DNA from: Antedon bifida
Taxonomy: Eukaryota > Echinodermata > Crinoidea > Comatulida > Antedonidae
DNA length: 64,000 nucleotides
Assembly (NCBI GenBank): GCA_963402885.1
Contig: OY727098.1
Location: 20,384,717-20,448,716 of the forward strand
Direction: 5' to 3'
The notes under the pieces are model-generated. The model was given only the letters and a program-made list of their open reading frames with translations. It did not search any database and was not told where the DNA came from. How positions within the stretch are numbered: position 1 is the stretch's first letter; every line of letters starts with the position of its first letter. Both the position numbers and the translations under genes were made by a program. This document shows positions 9,201-63,103 of this stretch, piece after piece.

Positions 9201-12200
9201 TTAATTTATATCGTTATTAAATGGAGTATTTGACAAAGCTATTTCATTGAATTTTTAGTGTGCATGCTAATATCACACCCTGGGAAGTTAGTGTTATAAT
9301 TTATTCTAGATTCAAGAGGAGTTTGACCATCTGTGACAATTTGTTCATTTTGTTTTAGTTTTCGCAGTAATAATAAATCATGATCTTTTCTTAAAATACA
9401 CCCTTGGTCAGCTTTCTAAAAATTCAGTTTTTAAGAATTGTATTTTAATAGACAACAAGGCCAACAGCCATAAGTCGCGTGCTCTCAGAAAAAAATGAAC
9501 TTTCAAAAAGTAATGTACTTTAAAATTTTTCTGTACATCAAAACAGTTCAAAAAGTAAGATAAAGCGATAAAACGCATAGTGATACCGGACCGACAGACA
9601 GGCCGACATAGTGAACTATTGAGTCGCGTCCACGCGACTAAAAATTTTCTGAAACATCATTGGGCATTGTGAAAGTAAAGTAAACCATGTGTTATTAACC
9701 TAAATTTCATTTTGGATTTTTGTAATAAACATTAAAATCAATGCCAATAATGCTACACAGACGTTTCACTGTACACATTAATAATGGTTTATACGATGTA
9801 TGACAACTTTCAAAAACGATTTCTGAAAATATCAATACTGCGATTTATCAGTCAATAACCATAACTTACTGTAATTTAATGTTTAAAAAAGATCTGATCT
9901 ACAGTAAAGAATACTACAGGGTAATAACTTTAGTCTGGTACAGTTCTTTGCCAAACATACAGTTTAGTAATATTTAGCAAACCTGACACAAAAGTGCAAA
10001 CATGACTCAGTATCATCAGAGACTGAGATTAAGGATAATATTACATGCGCATGTTTCTCGATGTACGTACACTGAACATATTAAGTGCTACAGCCATGGA
10101 GAATTATCTCTTTGCAGTGTACTACTAGTACTAGTGATATCCTTACAACAATAAGCTACAATACAGACATTATGGGCTGTAAAGTCAAGATACATCGATT
10201 CTTTATTTTATGATTTTAAACTTGGGTATAACCAGTGTTACTATGATCATGGAGGAATGATCTAAATTCCTCCATGCTATGATCAACTTTTGTTTTCAGC
10301 AAATTCTTCATCGCATTTCATTCATCACGCCTATTTTAAGCTATTTTAGAAAGTTACAAAATTGTTCAGGCCACTTTTTGTAATGTCTGTAGAGAAGAAA
10401 GGGACATCATGGTGGTCATGGTGGAAAAGTCAATTAAACTGGGTTCCTTGACAGCTAGGCCACAGCACTCCAGCACCATTAAAAATAGAAAATCCTGAAG
10501 GGATTTAACCATCAGAACAGTACCTGCACAGTTTGATAAAATCTGACATTTGTAGAATGAAGTGGAATGGAACTAAGATTTTTTTATTTTCGCTATAATT
10601 TAGTAGGGTAGAACTAGTAAACAGCATCAAGTTTAAAATACTTAATCACGTAGGCAACCAAGCATGTTTTCCTTCCCACCAGTAGCGTTTGTTAATGTTA
10701 TTAGTATTGGAATATTGAGGGAAACTCCCAAGTGCTGATTATGATCTAAACTTTTGTTTTCAGCCAATCCTTCATCGCATTTCATTCATCACGCCTATTT
10801 TAAGCTATTTTAGAAAGTTACAAAATCGTTCAGGCCACTTTTTGTAATGTCTGTAGAGAAGAAAGGGACATCATGGTGGAGAAGTCAATTCCTTGACAGC
10901 TAGGCCACAGCACTCCAGCACCATTAAAAATAGAAAATCCTGAAGGGATTTAATGATCAGAACAGTACCTGCACAGTTTGATAAAATCTGACATTTGTAG
11001 AATGAAGTGTTGCAAAAATGGAACTAAGATTTTTTAAATTTTCGCTATAATTTAGTGGGGTAGAACTAGTAAACAGCATCAAGTTTAAAATACTTAATCA
11101 CGTAGGCAACCAAGCATGTTTTCCTTCTTCTTACAAAAAAAATTTCCCACCAGTAGCATTGCTAATGTTATTAGTGTTGGAATATTGAGGGAAACTCCCA
11201 AGTGCTGATTATGATCTAAACAAGTTTTATTGTTAATGTTAACTGTACATTGATAGGTTGTCTGTTCCTTAGCAATTGTCTAACTGCAAGCACAGTGGTA
11301 ATAAAACAATGTTAAACATGTTTTCTTTTGCAATATAAAAACAAATTATACAACTGTAAACCTCTGTTGAAGAACTCATAGTTAATTTCAAGTGAAATAT
11401 TATCGGTTTATGTAAATACCCACTTGAACAATGGATTAATATTATGGGATATTAAACTCACCTTGCGTGCAATAACAAGTTGCACAACATTTCCCGCATT
11501 ACGCAGGATGTCGACGACCTCGTTGTGTGTGACACACATAAGATTATGTCCATTAATCATCAGTATCTCGTCTCCCTTCTGAAGTCGGCCATCCCTAGAA
11601 AATTATTTCAAAAATATATGACCTTAATATTATAAATTGTATTAAGTCACCAATTGAAATAAAAATAGAATGAAGGGATGTGTAAACATTAGCACTGAAA
11701 AGACGGTTAATAAATATTTCCTAATGATTTTATATGGCGGAGAGTAATTTTTAATACAATTTTCTCCCATCATTATCTGTTATGCCGTAATCAGCCAATA
11801 TAAAAAGTCATACCAAACTCTATATCAGCGAAGAATCTAGAAAACGTGGTGTGGTGCCACTAACTATTAACTATAATATTAGAACAATACATATGTTTTT
11901 GCAATTCTTGATTGTGTATTTTGGTATCATTTGTGTGTATTAAGGTACAGATGGCCTTATATTTTAGATTTCATATTTCTAGTTTTTAAGAGTGTTTACA
12001 AAAACACTCCAAACTGTAATGTTATAATAAATGATGTGGAACCACTGATTAAGAGATGAAGAAAAACAATAGAAAAAGTATATTGTATACAGTATCTGTG
12101 TAAACTATTTAAATCCATACTAGTTACATTTTACCATTACTCAATATAGGATGTAAAGATAACACATACAATGTATGATGCAAATAATGATACTGTAGGA

Positions 12201-17960: not shown

Positions 17961-18273
17961 ATGCACTTGTCAATTGTATGCATGACCCACTATACGACCC
18001 CCGGGAGAGGTGCGTCATGGGTGCGTCATTTACAATTAATTACAGACGCAGGGGTGGGTCAAAAAACCTAGATGGTACGTCAAATCAATGACCAATGGTG
18101 TGTTAATGTCCGTCACTTTAACACCCAAAATATCATAAAAAACATGATCACAGTGTCTTCAAAATGGGTGCATCATGGTAATCATGGCACACATCGGACA
18201 AATGACACACATCGGACAAATGACGCACCTCTCCCGGGGGTCGTATAGTGGGTCATACAATTGACAAGTGCAT
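17961..18273. mobile_element. MITE-like element with about 55-bp terminal inverted repeats, copy 1
   Basis: The left end (17961 onward) starts ATGCACTTGTCAATTGTATG and runs on through CCACTATACGACCCCCGGG to AGAGGTGCGTCA. The right end is the reverse complement, from TGACGCACCTCTCCCGGG to ACAATTGACAAGTGCAT at 18273. The left arm carries an extra GCAT. The interior has short repeats around GACAAATGAC and CACATCGGA and no ORF. A related, more decayed copy lies at about 32970-33190. A nonautonomous DNA transposon is the simplest reading. Confidence 0.75.
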
Positions 18274-19847: not shown

Positions 19848-21400
19848 GTACATTAAATCAAATTATGTTTTAAAATCACAAATTATAACCCTTGCCACTT
19901 GTACAAAGAAGTTTTTTTGGACAAGTAGTTCTCGAGAAAATGCAATTTCAGTTTAGGCCTACTTGTTACGACTTTTGAAAATTTTCTCCCTACAAGCAGG
20001 TCCGAAATAATAATAAAAATTTACCCTGGTACAGATTGCCTTCAAAATTTAATGGCCATATCAACTGTATTTCATTTTGGTAAAGATCAATGACTTTTTT
20101 GACTCCTTAACCGCGATCGACTAGCCTACTAGGGCCCGGCCCTCCTTGGGCGGATGTAAAATAGCATACAAATGCAGTCAACCTCTTGTATGTACTTGAT
20201 CTCAGCATCTCAGATAAATGCAAACCAATACCGTCCATGGAGCAAAAATATTTTTTGCTCCATTTTTTGAATAATTTTTTTCGAAAATGCCAGCATGCAT
20301 GTAGGCCTATCATTTTTATTCACTCGGACAGAAATGCTGAAACAATGATCATCGAATTGTATAATTCTGGAAGCACTCATGCGGGGTAGATTCCTCTCTC
20401 TTTCCCCACCTAGACTCAATCCTATTTCTTAAAGCATGGAGTTATAAAATTAATTTTATAACTCCATGCTTAAAGTATATCATACAGCATACGGTTTTTA
20501 AATTTCACATTGTGCTGCTGTAATGATCCATGTCTACCGTTTTCTATAATCATTAATTCTTATTAAATACAGATAAAATACGAAAACAGTGTTGTAAACA
20601 GATAGTATTTTATTTTAATCAAAATTACGTAGTCTTGAACGAATGTGTATTTATTTATTATAGAAAATATATATATGTATTTTCTCCCAATAAAACATGA
20701 ACAGATTTAAAAAAGGCCATTCGCAGTTTTAATAAAGTTAATCACTTCCATAGGAAAAAAAGACGTTTCACTTAAAAAGACAAAAATAAACGGTTTTAAA
20801 TTCAACTAAATTAAGTAGGCTTTTAATTGATTAGTACAGTACCCTGTTTTCATTTATTATTTTTGTTTGTATATTTATCATAGGCATAGTATAATCAGCA
20901 GGTTCCCCTAATAAAAACAAAATGTATAAATACTATTCAGGTATTAGTAGAACAAGTTGGGCTCTAAAACACGCTAGGACCATAATTTTTTCATTTAAAA
21001 TATCTTTTTTTCTACGTTTTTTTATTCCCCCCTCTGAAAATGGATAGGTCTGTTTCCTAATTCAAAGATTTCACCTTCTGGTAGATCATCGTCTAGTGGA
21101 CAGATGTCAGTGCAAACAGCGTAGCATAGCATAGAGAAGGTCACCATTTTAGTGAGACGTGAAGGCATGCAACAGACCATCTCGCGGTCGTCGTTGGTGG
21201 TGGTGTGCAACGTGTGTGACTCACTTCTCTCCCCGACCCGCGAAACTTGTTCTCATTCTGGTATGCTAGGCATCATAGCTTTTAGTAGGCCTATTGTAAT
21301 ATTATATGCCATACGGCTTCTGTATTTACCACTGCTACTAATAACTAGGCTACTACTAAATAGTCTCCTAGATAGTAGTTACAGTACCAGCCCTTAGCCC
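19848..21400. other. Intergenic; no gene recognised
   Basis: Contains a 40-bp perfect palindrome (20432-20471). The 21.03-21.25 kb part is relatively GC-rich and may be promoter-proximal for POLR3G. Short ORFs here match nothing I recognise. Confidence 0.45.
20432..20471. repeat. 40-bp perfect palindrome without spacer
   Basis: AAGCATGGAGTTATAAAATT is directly followed by its exact reverse complement. It could form a cruciform or hairpin. No function is visible. Confidence 0.85.
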
Positions 21401-21640: not shown

Positions 21641-24600
21641 ATGGGTGGTCGTGGCCGAGGTAGAGGAAGGGGGTCAGCTTTATCATTTACTGCAGAAGTA
21701 CTGGGTCTTGGTCGTGGAGCAGATGCATTACCAACTGGTGCTCTACAGCCTCCTCCTCTTTTTCCGGTAAGTTTCAAAGGTCCGGCTGCTTAAAATAACT
21801 GGTTAAATGTTATAAATTGATTGCATGATTAGAATCAATTTTTTAAATCACACCCGGGCCATCTTGATTTTCAAATTTTAATAGATTCTTTCTCGGACAA
21901 TAACCAGTACTCATAAACTACCAACATTGGTTTGATATTCTATTTTGTGCCAGATAAACCAACAGAGCCAGTATTAAGTAAGTGCTGAACTGAGCACATT
22001 ACTTCCACACAAAAAGATCTTTATGACTGAAGTTGCAGTCATGTGGTCTGTGGAATATTGGATCAAATTTGCAATCGCATCATAGACATCTGTCTATTGG
22101 GAACACCAAGTTGATGTAGAGGGTAGATAGCAGATCGGCTCAGCTGTAGATCATTGGAGCACACTCTGGTGCTACATCTGCATCAGGCTGATTGACATTG
22201 ACAGTATTGAGATTGGTTGAAGTACATGCCCCTAGGCTGTTCTAAGGTATAGACAGGGCATCTACTGTCAATGTGCATCATGGTACGATACCAGCTCTGC
22301 AAAATGTTAGAAGCTGCAATGTGTTGCCTGAAGTTACAAGCACTACTGCACAGGTATATCCTATGTTTAAGCTACCAAAATAATGAAGATTTGGGTGGCA
22401 ATTCTCAGCATCAGTTGTGATCGGGACAGGGCGTCATTCAGACTGCAGCTAAATTATGTTCATGTGTGGCAAGACAGCATGATTGCCTCCCTGACAATTC
22501 ATGTACTAGGAAACTGTTCTATCAGAGCTATGAGCGTATATGTTCAACTGCCCAAGAGTTCTGTCTTGGAGGTGGGACCATCACAAGATTTGGTAGAAAG
22601 GAATTTTAGTTGGTTGCGGTCACAGAATTCTGTAATGAGGAGGATAAATCTCAGGCTGTCACATTCAGTTTCAAGTCACTCCTCGACCATTGATCTAGGG
22701 ATCGAAAAAGTCTTCTCTGATAAGAACTTAAGACTGGAGGTCCAGTGTACACATCTGGCCTGTGTGCACTTTAAAGAACCCAGTTCATCTTTTGAGAGTA
22801 GGGAGTTACCCTGTTGTACTGGTCCATTCAGCCCCTGTCGTTGTGGACAGACGAATGGGTGCCGTTTGGTGGCAGCACTTGACATGAAGGGACCCGGGTC
22901 ATTCCCCCACACTAATATTTACAAGTTAGGATGGGTTTGCATTGCCTGTTTTTTTGTTTTTTCGGCTAAGAAGATGGTAGACTCATGTTCATTGCGACAT
23001 GGCAATCATCTGCTTGCACCACCACCCCTTGGGAGGGCCTCCTTCAATCAGTATTTTGTGGACCTGAGCCAATGTAGACTTGTTTAAATTCTGGTGTCTA
23101 TGAGTCACAGTAAGAGAACCCACTAACCACTCTGACAGGGGCCGCCAAAAGTAGATCCCCTACATCCTGCCTGTGTATCCCAACAATACCAACACAATTT
23201 CAGAGACAGCATGCATCCCTAATTATCTATGTTTGAGAAAACTGTTGTGTTGGACTTGACGAACAGATCTTGGTTTGGCAGAAGGAGCATAAGAGCTACC
23301 ATAATTCTAATATATTGATGAGGCATGCATCTCTGTGATGTCCAGATACAAAATAAATGCATTGATGGCCTCAGCGCCCAGTCAACTCCAGAGGCATTGT
23401 TTATATACTGATGTTCAGAATTGATCTTTAGTAAATTTGTCTACAACTTAAGATGTATTATGAATGAACACATTAGTTTAAACCACTTTTAAAGTGAGTC
23501 TGAACCAACAGATAGTGCACCCATTTTCCGAATCAGCAAAACGAAACTGGTTTAAAAAATCACATGTTCCTAGCCAGTTGTACAGAAATGTATGCTGTTG
23601 GAGCAGTAAGTATTTTCCACTGCCTTTAGTGTATTTACTACCCACTGATCAGAGAGAGAGTCACAACAGGACTATCACACAGGTTTATGTTCCAAGGTGA
23701 CTGATTTTGAGTCAGGTGCGTTCTGTTATACATCCGTAATGAGTATGTTATTTCAGACTGTTTATTGTCCCTTGACTGACAATGACATGTGCCACGATCA
23801 GCCAATTGTCTAGGAAATAAATAGTGTATGTTTACATGCTGTGTTGGTAAAAGAATTCTGTCAGCATTCACAATACTAAAACTTTCATGGAGCCATTGAT
23901 AAACAGAATGGCAGAGTGATAAATTTATACAGGAGACTGAATTTGAGAAAACTGTTGCAATTGATGTGTAGACGATGGCGGTTTGGTAGTTTAAAGAGCA
24001 TCAAATATATATGAAGGCATGCATATCTCTAGGATGTGATATGATACTGTATATACCAAATGCATTGGTGGCCTCAACTGCCCAGCCTAATGTTCATAGC
24101 CAGTTGTACTGTATACTGCTGAAGTGTTAACAGAATGGCAGGGTTAATTCTTCACTTATGTAAATGGGAACATGAGAACAAGGTATGCAGTGCCATGCAC
24201 CAAGACTAAATCTGATGTGGCTGCCCAGTTTCCTTGTCTTGACCCCAAAGGATGGATGTGGAACTTGCATGGATGATTGACTGCTCACTTACCTTTTTGA
24301 AGTCAAGTCGAGTGGTCCAGTGGTTAAAGGCAGGGCATCTGCAAACTATAGCAAGTCATGCCTTGACTACTGTTCTGGTGGCCTGGTAGAACAAGTCTTC
24401 TCAGATAAGGACTTAAAACTAGAGGTATGGTGTACATATCTGGCTTGTGTGTACTCTAAAGACCCTGTTATCTTTTGGAAGAGTAAGGTTACCCTGGTGT
24501 AATGGTCCATTCAGCCCCTGTCGTAGACAGACAAACAGGCGCCATTTGATGGCAGCACTCAACATGAAGGCACCCTTAGGAGAGAAGAAAGTTATTGTAT

Positions 24601-27600
24601 GTCCTCGCAATTCAGCTCAGTTAGGTTGCAAGCAATGTGTTAATGTTATTTCCCCACATTTACAAGTTAGGATGAGCTGACATTACCTGTTTTTGTGTTT
24701 GTCTAAAAGAAGATGGTAGACTCATGTTCTGTGCCACATGGTATACATCTGCTTGCACCACCACTTGGGAGGGCCTCCTTCAATCAGTGTTTTGTGGACC
24801 TGAGCCAATGTAGACTTGTTTCAATTCCATGTGGTACCTATGGAGCATAGTTAAGAGAACCCACTGGCCACTGACAGGGTCCCCAAGCTTAGAAAACATC
24901 TTAGACATTCCTATTGTGTATCCTAGCACTACCAGCAACATTGTGGAGACAGCATTCCTCCCTAATTATCTATGAAAACGTTTTTGTTGGAATTGATGAG
25001 CAGATGATTTTGATGTTTGAATTGATCTTTAAATGGGTCTGCCATCAAGCCATCACTTGAGATGTGTTTGAACTAATTTTTCCAAGTTGGAAAACACCAA
25101 CATATAGTGATCCCATTTCCGCAAAACGAAACTAGTTTGGAAACCTAAAGTTCATCGATAGCCAGTTCTAGGGAATGTTGTTGAATAGTGTTTTCCACTG
25201 CCTTCAGAGTACAGTATTTGTTATCCACTCATGTAAGAGGACCGTCACTAAGGTTTACTAGTGTTCCGAGGTTTTATAGCAGTCATAAATTCCGTTGTGA
25301 GTAGAATATATTTCATGCTGCTATTTGTTCCTTGACTGATGTACCACAATCAAAGAATTTTATTTAGCATTCACAATATGCATGTAAAATATTCATGGAG
25401 CTATTGAATGAATGACAGAGCATTGAATTAGTACAGGAGACTGAATTTGGAAAAATACTTATTTCTAAATATCTGGATATGTGTCCTCCCTCCTCACCTT
25501 GATGGTTTCTATATCCAGACGACTACTGACGACACATCAACTAGGTTGGTCGTTGGTCCTTGATCCCTGTTAATACTGGATCAATTGGGATTGGTCATGA
25601 GTTCACTTTACGTAGCAGCATGTTACAGAATTGGGCAACGGATGTACCACTGAATCAGTCCTATTATGTCTGCATGTCTTCTCCCGATTCTATGTGCAAG
25701 CTCCTGATTGGAGAGTGTGTCAGTCACTCTCGTAGCCCCTGGCAATAGATGTACCCTCAAAGATTGATGTCTGAGGTAGGTGAATATCGTATGGTATAGG
25801 GAAGGACCAACATGAGATATTTATTGTGGCTCATCCCTGAGCAGAGCTCACCATTGCTGCTTTTGCCTGTTCCAAAGATAGCTTATTTGAAGGTAGGTGG
25901 ATGCAGAAATATCCTCCGGTGCAGATTCCGTTAAAATTATGCTCAACGGTTGCATTCTGGGAATCGCTGTATATACTGAAGAGTGATGGTGTAATGATAA
26001 TATCGGACTAGCATATATCAGACTAGAATGTGATGGGCATGGTTTCGAGCCTATCTGTACCATACTGATTGCATCCTTAGGCAATATGCTTTACTCTTGG
26101 TGCATTGTCTTTCGATGCAAAGCCGTTGATCCCGTGTTCATATAGTGCAAGTTAAAGAACTTGGTAGATTAAGAAAAAAAGGTCCAGCCATGCCAGCAGT
26201 TCAGTTCAATCTTACCTTCACTTTAAAATAGCACTTAATTTTTTACCATCATAGCATGGACCTATTTTAGGTCCATGGTCATAGAAAAGAGCAAATCTAA
26301 AACATGACTGAGTTTATAAGCACCATTTAAGATTCTTGTTAATTTGATTTTGTGAGATAAATATTATTTTTCAGCCTTTAGAATATAAAGCACTTCCTCT
26401 TTTAACTGGTGAGGCAAGGGAGTACATGTTGGCATTGAAGCAGGAATTTCGGGCATCCTCCAGAGATTCACCATATTACATTAAACCACGAAACAAAAAG
26501 AAAGGTACTTTCACCTGATTTTCAAGCCATTACTGTCAATTGGTAATGTAAAATATTTAATTCAACTCTTACAAATGAAGAGATTTTAAATTATTTCAGA
26601 CCCATTGTTTTTGTAGCAATTTTGAATTACCAAATCAATACTTTTGTTATGTTTTACCAGATATTGACAGATACTCTGACAAATATCAAGGAAGTGGTCA
26701 AAGTGCAGACAACAGTGAATGGACGCCAGATTGGACTAGGTTTCCAAAAGAACTACAAATAAGGGTCAAGAAGTCAAGAGGTTTGTATACAAATAGTGAA
26801 TATATTCGTTGAAAAGAAATAATGAAAGCCAAGTCTTTAAGTTTGCTTCTCCAAATAAAAGGTATATATAAATATATGGTTATTTAAGTCAAGTCAAGTC
26901 AAGTATCATTTATTATCATTTGTTTTAAGAAAAAACATAGAAATTCTGTTTAATTCCAATTAGTCCAATCTGGCGTCCATTCACTGTTGTCTGCACTTAA
27001 TTTAATTTAGGTGAGAGAAAAAAAAACCTATCCCCAAATTAACAAAGTATTTGTTTCTAGTTAAAGGAAGCATAAAGCCCTCACTTAAAAAGCAGAGTGA
27101 AGATAAACAAAAAACAAAAGAGATTGAAAACAAGCTGGAGGTAATTTCTTTTGGTTTTTATTATTCTTGAGATTTTTTTTTTTTAAAGGCAATAACACTA
27201 AAATAGCTAGCTGTTTCTTAATTCATACCAGGAGGAGGGAGTCATCTTCTGGGTAGGTGCTGCACTGCTGGCTGCTCTGTGGGTCTGTGGAGGGCATAGT
27301 CCAAATTTTCTCAGTTTCCAGTTACACTTGATGCGGATAATAAATGTCTTTACCAAAGCAAAGGAAAAAACTAATTACTGCACCAAGCTTCATCCTTTAT
27401 TAGCCTGCTTGATTTCTTGTACATATTCTTAAGCAAATTAAAATGTATACATTCTCATCAATAACCACCGTTCCAAATGTTCCTTTGAAATGTTCCGTTA
27501 AATTGACCTCTTTATTTTATTTTATAAACTAGATACTTACCATAACTTAAGTTTAAAGCCTTTATACTGAGTAGTCTTCTGACTGCTCTGCTTGAGCTGC

Positions 27601-28042
27601 CTTGGTAAGGTTTTGATTGAGATCTTTCCAAGAAGAACTCTTGTGCAATTTGTTTTATGGTATAAAAGTCTTTACTTTTAACATTTTAAATGTGTATGAG
27701 TATGTTTTTTCATCAAAAATAACTGTCTATATAGGAATTGGTCAAGAAGGAAGAGGAAGGGTCAGGAAAAGAGGAAGGAGAAGAAGAGGAGGAAAAGGAA
27801 GCTATAGAAGATGATGAAGAGTTCTATGATGAGGAAGAAATGGAAGAGGTAAGAGAAATTCTGTTTTTCTTTGTAATAAGACTACAATTCCTAAAGAAAA
27901 TTGACATTAAACTGTTGTACAAACAATATGACTTATTTTCTAACACTAACAGGGAACAGATTACATTGTGAACTATTTTGATAATGGAGAAGATTTTGCA
28001 CCTGATGAAGATGATAACTTAGAAGATGGACCGGTTTACTGA
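21641..28042 (+). CDS. POLR3G: DNA-directed RNA polymerase III subunit RPC7 (POLR3G/POLR3GL-like)
   Basis: Six exons with GT/AG borders and matching phases: 21641-21766, 26375-26504, 26661-26780, 27061-27140, 27735-27848 and 27953-28042. They encode 219 residues, close to the 218-223 of vertebrate RPC7. The N-terminus is Gly/Arg-rich (MGGRGRGRGRG) and leads to PPPLFP, then YKALPLLTGE, YMLALKQEFR and DIDRYSDKY...WTPDW, all family hallmarks. The C-terminal third is highly acidic and ends DNLEDGPVY. RPC7 joins RPC3 and RPC6 in the Pol III initiation heterotrimer in the nucleus. The start has a good context (AAAATGG). Exon 3 is 120 nt, phase 1 at both ends, so skipping it would keep the frame. 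A perfect 38-bp inverted copy of part of exon 3 lies in intron 3. Vertebrates have two paralogues; which one this corresponds to cannot be told. Confidence 0.93.
22700..25455. repeat. Two diverged copies of a 1.1-1.3-kb block in POLR3G intron 1
   Basis: Block A (about 22700-23960) and block B (about 24380-25455) align in order. Both have AAGTCTTCTC(T/A)GATAAG, TGGTCCATTCAGCCCCTGTC, AAGATGGTAGACTCATGTTC, GGGAGGGCCTCCTTCAATCA, GACCTGAGCCAATGTAGACT, CAAAACGAAACT and TACAGGAGACTGAATTTG. Indels and substitutions are frequent, so the duplication is old. A third partial copy of A's interior seems to lie near 23960-24110. The 234-residue ORF at 22383-23087 is chance reading of block A. Confidence 0.75.
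24309..24480 (+). mobile_element. tRNA-headed SINE fragment within the duplicated block
   Basis: GTGGTCCAGTGGTTAAAGGC resembles a Pol III A box with flanks as found in tRNA-derived SINEs. It is followed by TCTCAGATAAGGACTTAAAA and GGCTTGTGTGTACTCTAAAG, the type of body common in marine-invertebrate SINEs. The B box is degraded, and block A at 22700 carries the equivalent body. Confidence 0.45.
25976..26190 (+). mobile_element. tRNA-derived SINE-like sequence
   Basis: A B-box-like GGTTTCGAGCC near 26041 is followed about 100 bp later by GTGCAAGTTAAAGAACTTGG, a motif resembling the GTGCACGTTAAAGA segment of invertebrate SINEs. The boundaries are approximate. It lies in POLR3G intron 1. Confidence 0.45.
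26701..26998. repeat. Perfect 38-bp inverted copy of POLR3G exon 3 inside intron 3
   Basis: Bases 26701-26738 lie within exon 3 and start AAGTGCAGACAACAG. Their exact reverse complement lies at 26961-26998 in the following intron, separated by 222 bp that include the exon 3 donor (26781). In the pre-mRNA the two could pair, burying part of exon 3 and looping out the 5' splice site. The perfect match in an intron implies recent origin. Confidence 0.9.
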
Positions 28043-32127: not shown

Positions 32128-33650
32128 TCAATGACCGGCAGCAGCATTAGTTACTTGTAAATTGCCATCATGTTCTTTGCCTTCATTAACAGACCATGCA
32201 TAGTAAAAGAAAGCGGGTATAAATATTCCTATAACAAACAACAATATAAGCATTGTCCACCACTTTAACCCACACGTAGCCCCATCACAATACGTTGCAG
32301 GAGTTTTTTGCTGGAAAGGGTGAATACGTTTCTCAGTCAACATTGATAGCACCTCATCTAACGATTCTTTCTTAGAAGTTGTCGCTGTTTGAATACGTTT
32401 TAAATCACGGTCCATGTTACGCAAGAATTGCTTTGCTTCGCCATCATGGATGGCATCTCGTATACTAATTCTGCGTACACTGAACAGTTCTTCCTCTTCG
32501 TCCTCCTCGCTCAGATTTTCAATGCGAGTTGAATTTGTTAATCCAGCTTCATTTTCTTGTAGACGCCTTCGTTTCTCTTCTTCCTTAATTTCAGTTAGAA
32601 GTCCGTAACGTTTTACTGGGATTTTAATTTTGGACAATGCATAAAAATCTTGATCTTGAAGCAGATTATTAATTCGTTTTAGCTCTGAAACCTGGAAAAA
32701 AAAAATATTGTTATTGAAATTAAAATCTGTTTTATAAATTACAAGCAAATTTGAATCAACATCAATTTGAAATTTATACTAATTCTACAGTACAGTAGAT
32801 TATGTAATTAACTTAATGTTAAATGGTTTTTATTATGGTGATTTAAACATTTATTTGTCATATTGGCATTTTTGTTATGCATTTGCATTTTATAGAAAAT
32901 GGAATAAGAGTAAAATTTGAATATTGAAACTAAAGTAGGCTTAAAAATATATATTTTTTATTTCTGTATTTCACCTCAATGAACGTCAATTTACGTTGGA
33001 CAGTCGGGTTGCATCATTGTTCTTTAAAAGGTCTGTCACTAATTAAAATATGGGTGCGTAATTCTAACGTTTTTGACGCAGAGGTGAGTCATGGTATACT
33101 GTACTGTACATATGATGCAAATCGAAAAGAATGGCGCACATATTCTGGGGGTCGTATAGACTATAGTGCGTCATGCAATTGAAAAGTACATTCTGAAAGA
33201 TTCAAAAAGTGCCACAGTGCTTTTCGCAGTGGTGCCATTCACATGTGTTTGTCTGAAACAAAAATACAACATTTAAATTATTAATGCTTTTTCTAGGCTA
33301 GTCTGAGATACTGTACGTACAGGAACAGCATACTGCAACGCAAATCCTAATAAAGTATCCGACGGTCTTATCTGTCTTTCTAACAAAACCTGTTCATCTG
33401 GTTCATTTTTCACATGATTATTTTTTGATTTTCCATGTTTCGACTTGTCAGTTTTTCGAGTCCTCAATTGAGTTAATTCAATCGCTGTATCGTCAGTTTT
33501 AACTTCTTCATCAGACAATTCTGCATCCCCAAATACATATACTCTTGCGTTTTGTACATTCTGAACTTGTCCCACTGTTGGTAACAGTTTTGCCCGTTCA
33601 AATTCGTAGGCCGGCGTGTGGGTATTCATTCCAAGAACGCCCACGGACAT
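32128..33650 (-). CDS. LYSMD3: LysM and putative peptidoglycan-binding domain-containing protein 3/4-like
   Basis: Two exons, 33650-33321 and 32691-32128, join in phase 0 (donor GTACGT, acceptor TTCCAG) to give 297 residues, matching the roughly 300 of vertebrate LYSMD3/4. The LysM domain spans the intron, near residues 93-142, from QIRPSDTLLGFALQY through VSELKRINNLL to IKIPVKRYGLL. A charged segment with an acidic run (about residues 170-180) follows, then one membrane span near 255-276, preceded by CGLKWW, and a short tail. Family members are single-pass, endomembrane-associated proteins; the ligand of the animal LysM is not well defined. No signal peptide is present, so the LysM domain probably precedes a type II-like anchor. 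The gene is head-to-head with GON4L. The intron carries a decayed MITE-like copy (about 32970-33190). LYSMD4 is the alternative name. Confidence 0.9.
32970..33190. mobile_element. Decayed second copy of the MITE-like family
   Basis: GGGGGTCGTATAGACTATAG followed by TGCGTCATGCAATTGAAAAG matches the right end of the element at 17961-18273. GTCTGTCACT and TGGGTGCGT also recur. The left end is eroded. It lies in the LYSMD3 intron. Confidence 0.6.
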
Positions 33651-34846: not shown

Positions 34847-37800
34847 ATGGCAGGAGTGAAACCACCTGATTCAAGGGAGGAAAACCCGAGTGAAGATAGA
34901 AATTGTCCTCAAAATAAAACAACCATGAATTTTTGTTCAAAAGACACCAGTAATAATGCCCAGGAAACAACTGAAAAAGAAACATATTCTGAAGATAAAA
35001 TCATGAATAAACAAGTAATGAAAGAGAGTTTTTCAGCAGAAGAAGAACAAGATACAGACATTGCCATGTGTTCTAAATCAGTTTCTTTAAGAACGCCACC
35101 ACTTGATGATAAAACGATTGAGAAAGACGATGAAAATCAATTAAAAATCGTTAATTTCGCTTCAGATAACAGTGATGATGATTATGTAAGTGATGAAGAT
35201 TCATCACCAAAAAATGAATCGCCAGTGAAGTCAACTGGCAAAGCCAAACTTCCCTGTAAAAGAAAGAAAACAACGTACCACCAAAGATCTAAAAAACGAA
35301 AGTTTGCTAAAACGGGAAGCTCTTCTGGGCATGATGACAACCTTCAGGGATCAACTTCCAAATCTGGTGACAGATTAAGAAGCATCTCAAAGCATAAGAT
35401 ACCATTTAGGTTTTCTCCTAAAAAGTCGTGCTCTGGTACCCGATTTAAACGAAAGCTTCAGGGGAAAAAGCTCAAGAAGTTAAGATTTAAAAAGAGAAAA
35501 GTGGACAATGAATCAAGTGATGAAAGCTGTTTTGGAGTCAATGATGAACTAGAGGAAACGTTAGAGGCTAACGCTACAAAGAATAACCTGACAGCTATTA
35601 ATGTTAAAAGCATATTGCATGTAAGTTTATATAAGAGGTGGGAGGTGGCCTACTACTATAAACATACTAAACTTTATATATACAGTATTATAAAATGTAT
35701 GTACATACATTGAATGTATGACTATTACAACGATTACTACTTTTTTTATACAGTCTCAAGACATGACCATGAGTTTTAATACCAAATAAACAGATAATGC
35801 TAAATAAAGACTTGAATTTTAAGAATATAAAATGGCTACCATGCTAATCTATAATTTTGACACAAAATAAATTGTTATGTCTCTAAATTGGGAAGATAAT
35901 CATATTTCAAATTTTGTATTAATATTTTTCATTTTCAAGACCTCTCCAAAAAAAAATCTGTTATCAATAGATATATGTTGTTAAATTTCTATTTACAGCA
36001 TGTAATAACAAATGAACATGTTCTGGCAATGGTGAGAAATACCATGTTAGAAGAAGAGGAGAAAGAACAGTTAGAAAAAAATGAAGATATTGAAGGAACA
36101 GAGAAGATAGAAGAAAGTGAAGAAGCATCATTCGTAAGTACTGTACAGTATATACAGATGTCTATTATTAACTTTTACAGAAGTGTGTCTTATGATTCGT
36201 TGACCAACATTGCGAAATCTGAGACCTTCAGGTCTTTAAGTTTATGAGAGATTCATTAAAACTTTTAAATCGCACTGTTTCTTTATTACAATTCTAATTT
36301 ACTATCATGTACTAATATGTATGAAACTTTTTCAGGAACCAAAAATGACAAGATCAAAGTTAAAAGAAGTTGTTCAACAAGCTAGAAATGTAAGTGTTAA
36401 TTAGTAGGTCTTGTTTGAAGGTTTGCATGGCGAAATCAAATGTTGATATAAGTTTGCGGAACACCACATATGTTAGTTCTTAAAAGAACTGTTGATTTTC
36501 TCAACAGTTCTTTTCAGAACTAACATATGTGGTGTACCGCAAACTTATATCAACATTAGTAGGTCTTACTGTTAATGTTTATTGTGTTGAAATAGGTAAT
36601 AGAATTGTCCTAAAATCTGTATTTCAACGTTACATTTTTTATAAATTCTAGGCACCATATGTTTGGCCGCTTTCTCCAGTGAAGAACAAGAAAGTTGTTC
36701 CACAATTTGCAGAAATTAATTTTGATGAAGATTCTGAGGATGATGAAGATTACAAGCCTGATCCAAATGAGGTACTTTTGAGAATTGTTGAAATGGAATT
36801 TTGTAGTATTGAATATATTGCGGTAAGCAACCTTGCATTAGACCTTACAGAGAAGGTAAATTTTGAACCGTCTAAACCTCACCATGCCCTTCTTTCCCTC
36901 TATCCAGATAGTCCATCCATATTGTGCATTACTTTCCTCAGTTCAGACCCACAGCCGCAGTCCGCAGCCACAGTGCATTTCCTACCGTAATCAACACACT
37001 ACTGTTTTCACATACCAAGTTCTTTCTTGTACACATGTGTATTTTACGTATGTCCCATCTGATGAGACAATGATAGCATCTTGCCTAAAGGTATTATGTC
37101 ACGGACAGGCCTTTAATCCCTCACATCAGGGTTTTCATTTAAGATTTATGATACAGAAGACCTTTACAAAAGCAGGGGAGACCATTCAGTACCCACAATT
37201 TAAGGAAGACTCTAGCTTAGGCCTTAGATTTAGAAAATAGCTGAGACCAAAACCAAAATACCTGCGTAAAAATCTCTGCATCTTGCCAAAACTCTCACAT
37301 GCTTTTGCCATACCGTTCTCAATTTCTAACTTTATAATGTTTTGTTACAACACAGAAAGATGAAAGTGATCATGAAAGTTACCTGTCATCACAAGTGAGT
37401 GAGTTTGGGTCACCATCTCCATTTACGCCATTGTCTCAACACAGTTTCCTAGAAAACCAAGAAGAAAGTCCTTTGAAAGACACTTGTATAATAGAAAACA
37501 CAACAGAAGATGCTGCAGAGCCTCTTGCAGTGCCTCTTCCTCACCTAAATGAGAAGGAGAAGGCGACAACGTCTATGCTGCCACCATCATCGATTCCACA
37601 ACCAGATAAGATATCTGATGATGACAAGTTTATGAAGTTACTGGATGAGATGGATAAAGAGTTGGATTCAATGAGCCAGAAACCACATGGAACGGTACAA
37701 ATGTTATTAAATTGTTTTCTTTTAACTAGGCAGAATTGAGTATTAGTCTATAAAATCAGTGTTTTCTAGATAAAATAAATTCTGGTTACTGGAAATAAAG

Positions 37801-56020: not shown

Positions 56021-56848
56021 GTAAGTTTAAATTAGTTTGTTTTACAATCTTATCAATTGCTGAATTTAAAAACTGTAATCGTTATCGTTACGGTATGTCA
56101 TAGCAAGCTTCCTATAGAGGAACAAAGCCTATCACTTACAGATTTGTTTGCGCTTTTTAAATCTAAAACCAATAATAATAATAATAATATATATATGTAT
56201 AAATCCAAAGGCAAATTACTGAAAATAATGACAATGCCGCCCGGTTATATATATATTTATCTCGGTTGGGGCGACTTTTTCTCATTCTCATAGATTTCAA
56301 ATTAATTAATTAAATTTCAGTATATCACTGGGTGGTTTAGAATTTATTCTGTGCCTATGATGTTTATAGGCCTATATACAAATGATTCCGCCGATATCTA
56401 ATTTAAAAAATGTTTGACACTCCCAACAAAATTTAAATGACCATAGACCTACAATAAAAACAATGACATAATACACGATTTCAATTATAAGTGTCAAAAG
56501 TTAGTTGTAAGGAGAATAAATATAATGATTTATGAATGTAAAATAATTATTACATTACAGAAATCCCAAAGATTAGTCTTTATTAATTGTCCATATCATA
56601 AGTCATATAGACTGATAATATTGCTCAAATTTATTTGTTCTTAATTGTTAAAACGGTGAACATACTATGCAAGCACTATTATATCCCATTACCAAGGTAA
56701 CGATAGCTTGAGGATGCTATATCTGACTGCACAAGGGTCATATTTCATATTCCGTAACATTTTTCAAGCCCAAAGCTACTAACTTCAGTAATACAGAAGT
56801 CAAGGTGACGAGCCAAGCAAATATAAAAAGTAGTCTGCTTGCAACAAA
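56021..56848. other. Probable intron between membrane-anchor exon and repeat exon
   Basis: AT-rich; short ORFs only. It contains an (ATA)n/(TAA)n microsatellite near 56173-56200. TATAAAA at 56822-56828 lies only 27 bp before the ATG at 56849, too close to serve as a normal promoter for that start. Confidence 0.4.
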
Positions 56849-59800
56849 ATGAGGTATGTCATATGTATTTGTATTGTCTTTATAGAGTTGTCAACGACCA
56901 AGACAATTTCGGCAACGCAATCTAATACTCAAAACGCACCTTCCACTAATTCATACACAAGAGTGACCACAGCACCATATAGTACTGCCGATCTTACAAA
57001 ACTAAACAGTGATACTATAAAAACATCGGTAGATTTAACATCCTCAAGTGGCTCTCCGGCAACAGATTCTACTACTCATTCTACGACAAACAATGAGGCA
57101 GAAACAACGTTATCCGAAATTACTGTGACACCCACAGGCAGTGTCTCAACTATGGAGATACCTTTGTCAAGTACTGATAAAACATCGATAGATTTAACAT
57201 CCTCAAGTGGCTCTACTTTATATTCTACTAATACACCTACAACAATGACCACTCTGGCATCAGCTAGTACTAGTCATTCTACGACAAACAATGAGGCAGA
57301 AACAACGGTAGCCGAAACAACTTTAACAACTACAAACAGTGCATCAACTATGGAGACACCTTTGTCAAGTCCTGATAAAACATCGGCAGATTTAACATCC
57401 TCAAGTGTCTCTCCGGCAACAGATACTACTACTCATTCAACGACAAACAATGAGGCAGAAACAACGGTAGCCGAAATTACTGTGACACCAATAGACAATG
57501 TCTCAACTATGGAGACACCTTTGTCAAGTTCTGGCAAAACATCGGTGGATTTAACATCCACAAGTGGCTCTACTCTATATTCTACTAATTCATATACAAC
57601 AATGACCACTCCGGCAGCTGATACTACTACGACTCATTCTACGACAAATAATGAGGTAGGAACAACTGTAGCCGAAACCCCTTTAACAACCACAAACAGT
57701 GCATCAACTATGGAGACACCTTTGTCAAGTCCTGATAAAACATCGGTAGATTTAACATCCTCAAGTGGCTCTACTTTATATTCTACTAATTTATATACAC
57801 TAATTACCACTCTGGCAGCAGCTACTACTACTCATTCTACGACAAACAATGAGGCAGAAACAACGGTAGCCGAAACTACTGTAACACCCACAAACAGTGT
57901 ATCAACTATGGAGACACATTCGTCAAGTTCTGATAAAACATCAGTGGATTTAACATCTTCAAGTGGCTCTACTCTATATTCTACTATTTCATATACAACA
58001 ATGACCACTCCGGCAGCTGATACTACAACTCTTACAACAACAAACAATGAGGCAGAAACACCGGTAGCCGAAATCACGTTAATAAACACGAACAGTGCCT
58101 CAACTATGGAGACACCGTTTTCAAGTTCTGATAAAACATCGATAGATTTAACATCCTCAAGTGGCTCTACTCTATATTCTACTAATTCATATAAAACAAT
58201 GACCACTCCGTCAGCTGATACTACTACTACAACTACTACTACTACTACTCATTCTACGACAAACAATGAGGCAGAAACAACGGTAGCCGAAACTACTGTA
58301 ACATCCACAACCAGTGCCTCAACTATGGAGACACATTTGGCAAGTTCTGATAAAACATCGGTGGTTTTAACATCCTCAAGTGGCTCTACTCTATATTCTA
58401 CTAATTCATATACAAAAATGACCACTCCGGCCGCTGATACTACTACTACTCATTCCACGACAAACAATGAGGTAGAAACAATGGTATCCGAAATTACTGT
58501 AACACCCATAAACAGTGTCTCAACTATGGAGACGAATTTGTCAAGTTCTGATAAAACATCGGTGGATTTAACATCCTCAAGTGGCTCTACTCTATATTCT
58601 ACTAATTCATATAAAACAATGACCACTCCGTCAGCTGATACTACTACTACTACTCATTCTACGACAAACAATGAGGCAGAAACAACGGTAGCCGAAACTA
58701 CTGTAACATCCACAACCAGTGCCTCAACTATGGAGACACATTTGGCAAGTTCTGATAAAACATCGGTGGTTTTAACATCCTCAAGTGGCTCTACTCTATA
58801 TTCTACTAATTCATATGCAAAAATGACCACTTCGGCAGCTGATACTACTACTACTCATTCCACAACAGACAGTGAGGTAGAAACAATGGTAGCCGAAATT
58901 ACTGTAACACCCATTAACAGTGTCTCAACTATGGAGACGAATTTGTCAAGTTCTGATAAAACATTGGTTGATTTAACATCCACTCTGGAAGCTGGTACTA
59001 CACCAACAAACAATGATGCAGAAACATCGGTAGCCGAAACCACTTTAACAACCACAAACAGTGTCTCAACTATGGAGACACATTTGGCAAGTTCTGATAA
59101 AACATCGGTGGATTTAACATCCTCAAGTGGCTCTACTCTATATTCTACTAATTCATATACAAAAATGACCACTCCGGCAGCTGATACTACTACTACTCAT
59201 TTCACAACAGACAGTGAGGTAGAAACAATGGTAGCCGAAATTACTGTAACACCCATTAACAGTGTCTCAACTATGGAGACGAATTTGTCAAGTTCTGATA
59301 AAACATCGGTGGATTTAACATCCTCAAGTGGCTCTACTCTATATTCTACTAATTCATATACAAAAATGACCACTCCGGCAGCTGATACTACTACTCATTT
59401 CACGACAGACAATGAGGTAGAAACAATGGTAGCCGAAATTACTGTAACACCCATTAACAGTGTCTCAACTATGGAGACGAATTTGTCAAGTTCTGATAAA
59501 ACATTGGTTGATTTAACATCCACTCTGGCAGCTGGTACTACACCAACAAACAATGATGCAGAAACATCGGTAGCCGAAACCACTTTAACAACCACAAACA
59601 GTGTCTCAACTATGGAGACACATTTGGCAAGTTCTGATAAAACATCGGTGGATTTAACATCCTCAAGTGGCTCTACTCTATATTCTACTAATTCATATAC
59701 AAAAATGACCACTCCGGCAGCTGATACTACTACTCATTCCACGACAAACAATGAGGTAGAAACAATGGTAGCCGAAATTACCGTGACACCCACAAACAGT

Positions 59801-60316
59801 GTTTCAACTATGGAGACGAATTTGTCAAGTTCTGATAAAACATCGGTGGATTTAACATCCTCAAGTGGCTCTACTCTATATTTTACTAATTCATATACAA
59901 AAATGACCACTCCGGCAGCTGATACTACTACTCGTACAACAATAAACAATGAGGCAGAAACATCGGTAGCCGAAACTACTTCAACAACAAACAGTGTCTC
60001 AACACCTTTGTCAATGTCTGATAGAACATCAGTGGATTTAACAATATCAAGTCATGAGACAGAAACTTCGGTAGCCCGATCGACTTTAACAAATACAAAC
60101 AGTATCTCAACTATGGAAACACCTTTGTCAAGTTCTGGTAAAACATCGGTGGATTTAACAACCTCAAGTGGCTCTACTCCACTTTCTACTAATTCATATA
60201 CAACGATGACCATAACGAATTTAACAACGAATGGTTTTAATACAGAAAAGGTTACTGATTTTTATACAGAGTTAGAAACAATTTCAGCAGATGACATTAC
60301 TTCTCTTACAACATAA
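56849..60316 (+). CDS. Mucin-like Ser/Thr-rich tandem-repeat protein
   Basis: A single uninterrupted ORF of 1155 residues if begun at 56849. About 17 imperfect repeats, mostly 60-70 residues, are built on STMETPLSSSDKTS, VDLTSSSGSTLYSTNSYT, MTTPAADTTT and HSTTNNEAETTVAE. Ser and Thr dominate and there is no Cys after residue 8, as expected for a densely O-glycosylated, extended extracellular protein. The C-terminus leaves the repeat (ITNLTTNGFNTEKVTDFYTE) and ends without a membrane span or GPI-type tail. Two start models exist. In one, the ATG at 56849 gives a short hydrophobic leader (YVICICIVFI) that could be a signal peptide, making a secreted mucin. In the other, the leader-coding bases are the pyrimidine-rich end of an intron and the ORF is entered at 56886 from the anchor exon at 55723-56020. 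I favour the second slightly because the phase fits and the first leaves almost no room between TATA and start. The long antisense ORFs are shadows of the repeat. Confidence 0.75.
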   Translation: MRYVICICIVFIELSTTKTISATQSNTQNAPSTNSYTRVTTAPYSTADLTKLNSDTIKTSVDLTSSSGSPATDSTTHSTTNNEAETTLSEITVTPTGSVSTMEIPLSSTDKTSIDLTSSSGSTLYSTNTPTTMTTLASASTSHSTTNNEAETTVAETTLTTTNSASTMETPLSSPDKTSADLTSSSVSPATDTTTHSTTNNEAETTVAEITVTPIDNVSTMETPLSSSGKTSVDLTSTSGSTLYSTNSYTTMTTPAADTTTTHSTTNNEVGTTVAETPLTTTNSASTMETPLSSPDKTSVDLTSSSGSTLYSTNLYTLITTLAAATTTHSTTNNEAETTVAETTVTPTNSVSTMETHSSSSDKTSVDLTSSSGSTLYSTISYTTMTTPAADTTTLTTTNNEAETPVAEITLINTNSASTMETPFSSSDKTSIDLTSSSGSTLYSTNSYKTMTTPSADTTTTTTTTTTHSTTNNEAETTVAETTVTSTTSASTMETHLASSDKTSVVLTSSSGSTLYSTNSYTKMTTPAADTTTTHSTTNNEVETMVSEITVTPINSVSTMETNLSSSDKTSVDLTSSSGSTLYSTNSYKTMTTPSADTTTTTHSTTNNEAETTVAETTVTSTTSASTMETHLASSDKTSVVLTSSSGSTLYSTNSYAKMTTSAADTTTTHSTTDSEVETMVAEITVTPINSVSTMETNLSSSDKTLVDLTSTLEAGTTPTNNDAETSVAETTLTTTNSVSTMETHLASSDKTSVDLTSSSGSTLYSTNSYTKMTTPAADTTTTHFTTDSEVETMVAEITVTPINSVSTMETNLSSSDKTSVDLTSSSGSTLYSTNSYTKMTTPAADTTTHFTTDNEVETMVAEITVTPINSVSTMETNLSSSDKTLVDLTSTLAAGTTPTNNDAETSVAETTLTTTNSVSTMETHLASSDKTSVDLTSSSGSTLYSTNSYTKMTTPAADTTTHSTTNNEVETMVAEITVTPTNSVSTMETNLSSSDKTSVDLTSSSGSTLYFTNSYTKMTTPAADTTTRTTINNEAETSVAETTSTTNSVSTPLSMSDRTSVDLTISSHETETSVARSTLTNTNSISTMETPLSSSGKTSVDLTTSSGSTPLSTNSYTTMTITNLTTNGFNTEKVTDFYTELETISADDITSLTT
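58800..59880 (+). repeat. 540-bp higher-order duplication within the mucin-like coding repeat
   Basis: Sequence near 58800-59340 recurs 540 bp later at 59341-59880. Both copies contain the same shortened unit, starting with TCCACTCTGG at 58979 and 59519 and encoding AGTTPTNNDAETS. Identity is much higher than between ordinary neighbouring units, so the array recently grew by an in-frame block duplication (540 = 3 x 180). Confidence 0.85.
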
Positions 60317-62765: not shown

Positions 62766-63103
62766 GGTGACAGGAAATGCTAATTGAGGGCTAATTAAGT
62801 AATTAGCTCCTCCTACTGAGTTAGATAAACAATTTAGCTTTGATGGAATCCGATTGTTTATTGAGTGTAGGTTTTATCTCTTTGATCCACAACATCTCCT
62901 TAATTAGGCAATCAAACTTATTGTTACATTTAAATGTAAATATAACAATAAGTTTGATTGCCTAATTAAGGAGATGTTGTGGATCAAAGAGATAAAACCT
63001 ACACTCAATAAACAATCGGATTCCATCAAAGCTAAATTGTTTATCTAACTCAGTAGGAGGAGCTAATTACTTAATTAGCCCTCAATTAGCATTTCCTGTC
63101 ACC
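62766..63103. repeat. 338-bp palindrome with perfect 161-bp arms
   Basis: The left arm 62766-62926 starts GGTGACAGGAAATGCTAATT. The right arm 62943-63103 ends AGCATTTCCTGTCACC and is its exact reverse complement. The 16-nt centre is itself almost symmetric. The innermost and outermost flanks also partly pair. No ORF of note is present. It could be a foldback transposon, a recent inverted duplication, or a library/assembly fold-back artefact. Confidence 0.93.

Follow-up and report, generated by a model that had tools for sequence, protein, structure and literature searches.

Organization of the POLR3G Locus

The window analyzed here is a stretch of 64,000 nucleotides from the genome of the crinoid Antedon bifida, which sits on a 28.2-Mb contig (OY727098.1, C11 in our numbering) of the 315.6-Mb assembly. 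A gene for POLR3G (RPC7) was modeled in the window with six exons and a predicted product of 219 residues (Table 1). This product matched the Pfam family RNA_pol_3_Rpc31 (E 1.2e-31) and human RPC7 (E 1.8e-35), the latter being the sole distinct PDB sequence matched, and its WTPDW motif aligned with WIPDW of human RPC7. The gene model bears out the length and the phases that a preceding sequence-only reading had assigned to exon 3. The idea that exon 3 has the weakest donor of the gene was dropped, as its GTTTGT and the GTACTT of exon 2 each show two departures from GTRAGT.

Table 1. Features of the POLR3G locus and further inverted repeats of the window (positions counted from the first letter of the window).
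Feature	Position	Strand	Basis
POLR3G exon 1, coding part, 42 codons, donor GTAAGT	21641..21766	+	gene model; protein matches RPC7
POLR3G exon 2	26375..26504	+	gene model
POLR3G exon 3, 120 nt, phase 1 on both sides, codes for the W-PDW stretch, donor GTTTGT	26661..26780	+	gene model, RPC7 alignment
Source segment in exon 3, 38 nt	26701..26738	+	sequence comparison
Possible left target-site repeat ATTTAA, weak; overlaps the LINE tail by its last two bases	26882..26887		sequence
3′ end of a 5′-truncated LINE, 66 nt; (ACTTG)n tail at the 26886 side, truncation at 26951	26886..26951	-	genome copies; RVT_1 in relative L014
9-nt extra sequence AATTCCAAT between LINE and copy	26952..26960		sequence
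Inverted 38-nt copy of exon 3	26961..26998	-	sequence comparison
Possible right target-site repeat ATTTAA, weak	27000..27005		sequence
POLR3G exon 4	27061..27140	+	gene model
POLR3G exon 5; start set to keep the reading frame	27735..27848	+	gene model
POLR3G exon 6, coding part with stop	27953..28042	+	gene model
Other inverted repeats of the window	17961-18273, 20432-20471, 36439-36557, 62766-63103

Inverted Copy of an Exon 3 Segment in Intron 3

A 38-nt segment of exon 3 is the reverse complement of a segment of intron 3 (38/38 positions), and the two arms are separated by a spacer of 222 nt. The perfect inverted exon copy claimed in the sequence-only reading is therefore real. Based on base composition, about 1.6e-13 perfect inverted repeats of at least 38 nt within 3 kb would be expected in the whole window, which rules out a chance match as the source of the repeat. 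A search of the whole 315.6-Mb assembly with the 120-nt exon 3 gave two places, namely the exon itself and the inverted copy. No dispersed repeat containing exon 3 was found in this way, and the copy, which is not dispersed, is not part of a MITE or a fold-back element. The exon segment encodes the conserved W-PDW stretch, and the exon is therefore the source, older and conserved, from which the intron copy derives.

LINE Fragment Beside the Copy

A genome search with intron 3 showed that the 66 nt preceding the copy (26886-26951) belong to a dispersed repeat, with most matches ending at or just before 26951. This piece occurred in at least 39 other places at 96–100% identity (40 places scored, including the window, of 114 candidates), was identical to the copies on contigs C10 and C1 (66/66) and agreed with the family majority at 45 of 45 positions. 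In one longer relative, L014, a 325-residue open frame with the reverse transcriptase domain RVT_1 (PF00078, E 8e-32) precedes the same 3′ end; the second frame of L014 (140 residues) gave no Pfam match. It should be noted that the RVT_1 result comes from L014 as the sole copy put through Pfam. The assignment of the repeat to LINEs is based on the dispersed copies with a common 3′ end and a simple-repeat tail, the variable 5′ breaks, and the reverse transcriptase encoded upstream in the longer relative.

The exon copy starts 9 nt past the LINE break. Read along the LINE sense strand, which is the minus strand of the window, the order is a POLR3G sense fragment, 9 nt, the LINE 3′ end and the tail. 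It follows from this orientation that the first-strand cDNA corresponds to the plus strand of the window and that the 38 nt were templated by the sense sequence of POLR3G.

An assembly or library artefact as the origin of this arrangement is extremely unlikely: the arrangement is known from a single assembly, but its edges are clean, it is joined to a LINE piece with a tail of its own and it lies inside a 28.2-Mb contig, where a consensus artefact of such a kind would be odd.

Thirty-four other copies and the window copy were aligned to L014 as the reference, which was itself outside the set tested for junctions. In two of them (L034 and L046) the LINE ran to the end of the fetched stretch, and they were left out of the junction test; the other 32 broke off at reference positions 45 to 385. 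Such variable break points are typical of 5′-truncated LINEs. Several copies extending further carry GCTCTGTTGG where the window copy stops, and the window lacks GCTCTGTTGG. Truncations at reference positions 49–52, near the window break, were also present in L016, L025/L037, L043 and L045. Perhaps this is a preferred stopping place, in a sample biased by having been chosen for similarity to a short piece.

None of the 32 other copies, each with at least 60 nt of right flank, showed a local inverted copy longer than 15 nt at the 5′ junction. For most of them this comparison covered only about 400 nt of left flank and 80–420 nt of right flank, and the copies are not all independent, with flanks common to L009a, L009b, L027 and L044 and to L025 and L037. 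The longest inverted match, 15 nt, was found in L024 and started 48 nt from the junction. Junction capture of a local inverted copy is rare for this LINE family, and the 32 copies speak against inverted capture as a general habit of the family. With regard to short target-site duplications in the family, the words shared by the two sides of a copy had a mean length of 4.09, compared with 3.52 in shuffled pairs (1 of 500 shuffles as high), for 33 pairs including the window and the duplicated copies named above.

Some of these copies have peculiarities of their own. In L043, 60 nt beside the LINE break are repeated directly 102 nt on, probably as a tandem duplication, and a second, weaker match to the LINE piece lies about 100 nt away. 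L027 and L044 (C13) and the two L009 copies (C7:24001354-24007475) consist of a LINE fragment with shared flanks, and seven matches to the LINE piece, two of which were fetched, lie within about 31 kb of C13 (9458472-9489715). The C13 and C7 fragments probably ride inside a larger repeated unit.

Junction Sequence and Target-Site Repeats

The last six of the 9 nt between the LINE and the copy, TCCAAT, recur nine bases on, inside the copy (26964-26969). A recurrence as good was reached by 6 of 856 local windows, and it may mark a stutter of the enzyme. The junction word TTCTGTTTAATTCCAATTAG occurred exactly once in the genome. At two mismatches, six more places were found, about equal to the five given by a reversed-pattern control, and so the 9 nt are not supported as a feature of a LINE subfamily.

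Two other copies could be aligned past the break. L016 aligned across the 9 nt with one gap and one mismatch, a score that 224 of 4000 control stretches equaled. L045, the best of the 32 copies, aligned about 20 nt past the break with gaps and was equaled by 32 of 4000. In view of these control scores, and of L045 being the best of 32, both alignments are taken as chance, although a shared junction feature is not strictly excluded.

A 6-nt word, ATTTAA, brackets the LINE together with the copy; the surroundings are AT-rich, and 34 of 844 local windows reach 6 nt. The sequence right after the LINE shares just 3 nt with the left flank. This weak signal would fit an insertion that runs through the end of the copy better than one that ends at the LINE. 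Microhomology at the ends of the copy is unreadable without an empty site, as shared bases would count into the 38.

Origin of the Inverted Copy

Based on the above results, we consider it probable that the inverted exon copy is extra 5′-junction sequence of a recent LINE insertion in intron 3. We suggest the following pathway for its formation. A LINE in minus orientation would nick the plus strand near 26885 and start target-primed reverse transcription, with the first-strand cDNA extending rightward on the plus strand. After about 66 nt, the enzyme would leave the LINE RNA and add or copy 9 nt. Then, it would copy 38 nt of POLR3G sense sequence, either from a local transcript or from the local plus DNA strand, after which the end of the cDNA would be joined to the right flank near 26999. 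Taken together, the arrangement is a neat accident, and a genuine one, in which the 5′ junction of a LINE most likely captured a piece of the gene that the LINE had entered.

The copy and the LINE look equally young, since the LINE piece is still identical to its copies on C10 and C1. The sequence-only reading had offered a recent neutral template switch as one of its explanations. Our results come close to this explanation, but the agent is most likely the LINE reverse transcriptase and not a stray slip of replication, because a truncated LINE has its 5′ break 9 nt away from the start of the copy.

Chimeras of a cellular RNA and a 5′-truncated LINE are described from mammals and a fungus (PMC2104539). 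A sense-sense layout is attributed to template switching or to prior joining of RNAs, and the opposite layout to twin priming (PMC13174262). Twin priming (5′ inversion) is therefore disfavored at POLR3G, where it would give the orientation opposite to the sense-sense layout found. If a POLR3G RNA and a LINE RNA had been joined before the insertion, the sense-sense layout would likewise be expected, but it would then be a coincidence that such a chimera inserted into the very gene from which it came.

The other way to obtain the arrangement is by two events, namely an ordinary LINE insertion followed by a replication template switch or templated end-joining that wrote the 38 nt beside the LINE. 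Short-range template switches during replication are described to make perfect inverted repeats (PMC7954356, PMC8794818), and in so short an intron a copy would fall by chance within 9 nt of a LINE end at about 36 of 280 positions, or one in eight, which is not a negligible share. However, the copy stands at the 5′ break of the LINE, and the gain of extra sequence at this end is a known trait of LINEs. The word ATTTAA, although weak, brackets the LINE and the copy rather than the LINE alone. Furthermore, 38 nt copied across 222 nt would be atypical in comparison with the gold-standard template switches of great apes, for which PMC7954356 gives a median of 12 nt and a maximum of 128, sought within about 100 nt of a cluster. 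We regard two events as rather unlikely.

For the single LINE event, both RNA and DNA would fit as the template. The source lies in the same gene, 222 nt away, which argues for a template tethered to the site, i.e., the nascent transcript or the displaced plus strand. Splicing gives no clue to the choice because the whole copy lies within one exon. The more specific idea, that the LINE enzyme jumped in one step onto the nascent pre-mRNA of its host gene and so planted the complement of an exon in the next intron, is put forward only tentatively, as it is more doubtful than the junction origin as such. If it is true, a LINE insertion can make ready-made exon–intron hairpins, i.e., substrates for splicing or editing, from its host gene. 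More generally, if the LINE and the copy arose in one event, a LINE insertion can, in a single step, provide an intron with sequence perfectly complementary to the coding exon next to it. This would be a simple route to exon–intron hairpins like those in RNA editing and structured splicing. If transcripts serve as the template, the fragments captured throughout the genome would be expected to have transcript sense with respect to the LINE and to originate in transcribed regions close to the insertion.

Comparison with Known LINE Junctions and Template Switches

The POLR3G locus shares with LINE chimeric retrogenes (U6/L1, mRNA/L1 and the fungal MINE, all attributed to template switching) a truncated LINE 3′ end with its tail and non-LINE sequence at the 5′ side. 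Here too, as in the retrogenes described in the cited papers, the captured piece and the LINE have the same transcriptional sense. In contrast, the captured piece comes from the recipient gene itself, 222 nt away, the two parts are not joined directly but through 9 nt, and there is no clear target-site duplication. The classical definition of such chimeras, as worded in PMC2104539, requires a full-length cellular RNA as the 5′ part, whereas the piece captured here is 38 nt long and internal to exon 3. Fragments, too, are reported as captured 5′ parts (PMC13174262).

Extra nucleotides at LINE 5′ junctions are described from other animals. They are frequent in zebrafish L2 LINEs, where a large proportion is said to come from flanking sequence (PMC4245944, PMC2666801), and are given for 14.6% of the 5′-truncated L1 specific to human and chimpanzee (PMC2912911). 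Like zebrafish ZfL2-2 of the L2 clade, the window LINE has flank-derived extra sequence at a truncated 5′ junction. It differs in that the extra sequence amounts to 47 nt, 38 of which come from nearby sequence, and in that the source of these is a coding exon on the primer side of the nick. With replication template-switch mutations, the locus has in common a perfect inverted copy of nearby sequence that can arise in one step; here, however, the copy and its reach are longer than typical, and a LINE junction lies at the switch point. In the part of the literature covered by a limited search, we found no published LINE capture of an exon of the host gene itself.

Predicted RNA Fold and Possible Function

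The fold was computed on 400 nt, from exon 3 through the end of intron 3. The predicted fold forms the 38-bp duplex anticipated in the sequence-only reading, with an energy of -114 kcal/mol compared with a mean of -67.8 for shuffled sequences (z -8.5; 0 of 100 shuffles as good). With the insert present, the exon segment is predicted to be 1% unpaired, compared with 43% when the flanks are joined directly. ADAR substrates include intronic sequences complementary to exons, and here too a coding exon is predicted to pair with the intron that follows it.

These values bear on the possibility that the exon–intron hairpin is a functional element and that selection maintains it, either to switch the splicing of exon 3 or to serve as a substrate of RNA editing. 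Exon 3 is in phase, and 10 of the 14 exon adenosines in the duplex are predicted to recode if edited. In addition, A_deamin domains are encoded at several places of the genome, with 16 matches in all, but in none of 14 control genomes; this family includes both ADAR and ADAT1, and the matches may be either of them. On the other side, youth accounts for the perfect match of the arms without any need for selection, as the LINE piece next to the copy has not diverged either. The insert is predicted to leave the exon 3 donor almost as accessible as without it (38% to 35% unpaired) and to open the intron 2 acceptor (22% to 44% unpaired). Judged by this model, a donor little changed and a more open acceptor would not point to skipping. 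Furthermore, skipping of exon 3 would probably disable the subunit, because this exon holds the conserved W-PDW core. An effect on splicing or editing is possible on the strength of the predicted fold, but a hairpin maintained by selection seems highly unlikely to us, and for the present we take the hairpin as neutral.

Other Repeats and Open Frames in the Window

The window and ten samples of 10 kb, 164 kb in total, were searched for further perfect inverted repeats (at least 18 nt, within 3 kb), which were found in L005, L006 and four places of the window (Table 1). Among the three repeats tested for dispersal, the exon copy alone was not dispersed, and the other two, at 17961-18273 and 62766-63103, represent dispersed transposon-like families.

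The first of these is a 313-bp inverted-repeat element with terminal repeats of about 55 bp. It was found in at least about 40 places including the window (509 candidates), the nearly full-length ones at 82–88% identity, and judging from these copies, it is a MITE-like family. The second is a 161-bp perfect inverted repeat with a 16-bp spacer, and its two arms are thus almost adjacent here. Single arms, about 170 bp in length, occur in at least about 40 places at 97–100% identity (40 scored of 187 candidates), and they look like the terminal repeats of a young DNA transposon. The repeat at 36439-36557 is short, with arms of 21 and 20 bp. A direct duplication of several hundred bases was observed at 10306-11127, with exact pieces of 52–70 bp about 450 bp apart.

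Two further open frames were noted. A frame on the minus strand (32128-32778) has an end that, as we presume, resembles LYSMD3/4; the search of this frame gave no NCBIfam match and no LysM-like motif. In vertebrates, LYSMD3 neighbors POLR3G, and the position of the frame beside POLR3G could be old synteny. The other frame (56834-60316) has 1160 codons, is rich in Thr and Ser, contains tandem units of about 200 bp and has a mucin-like appearance.
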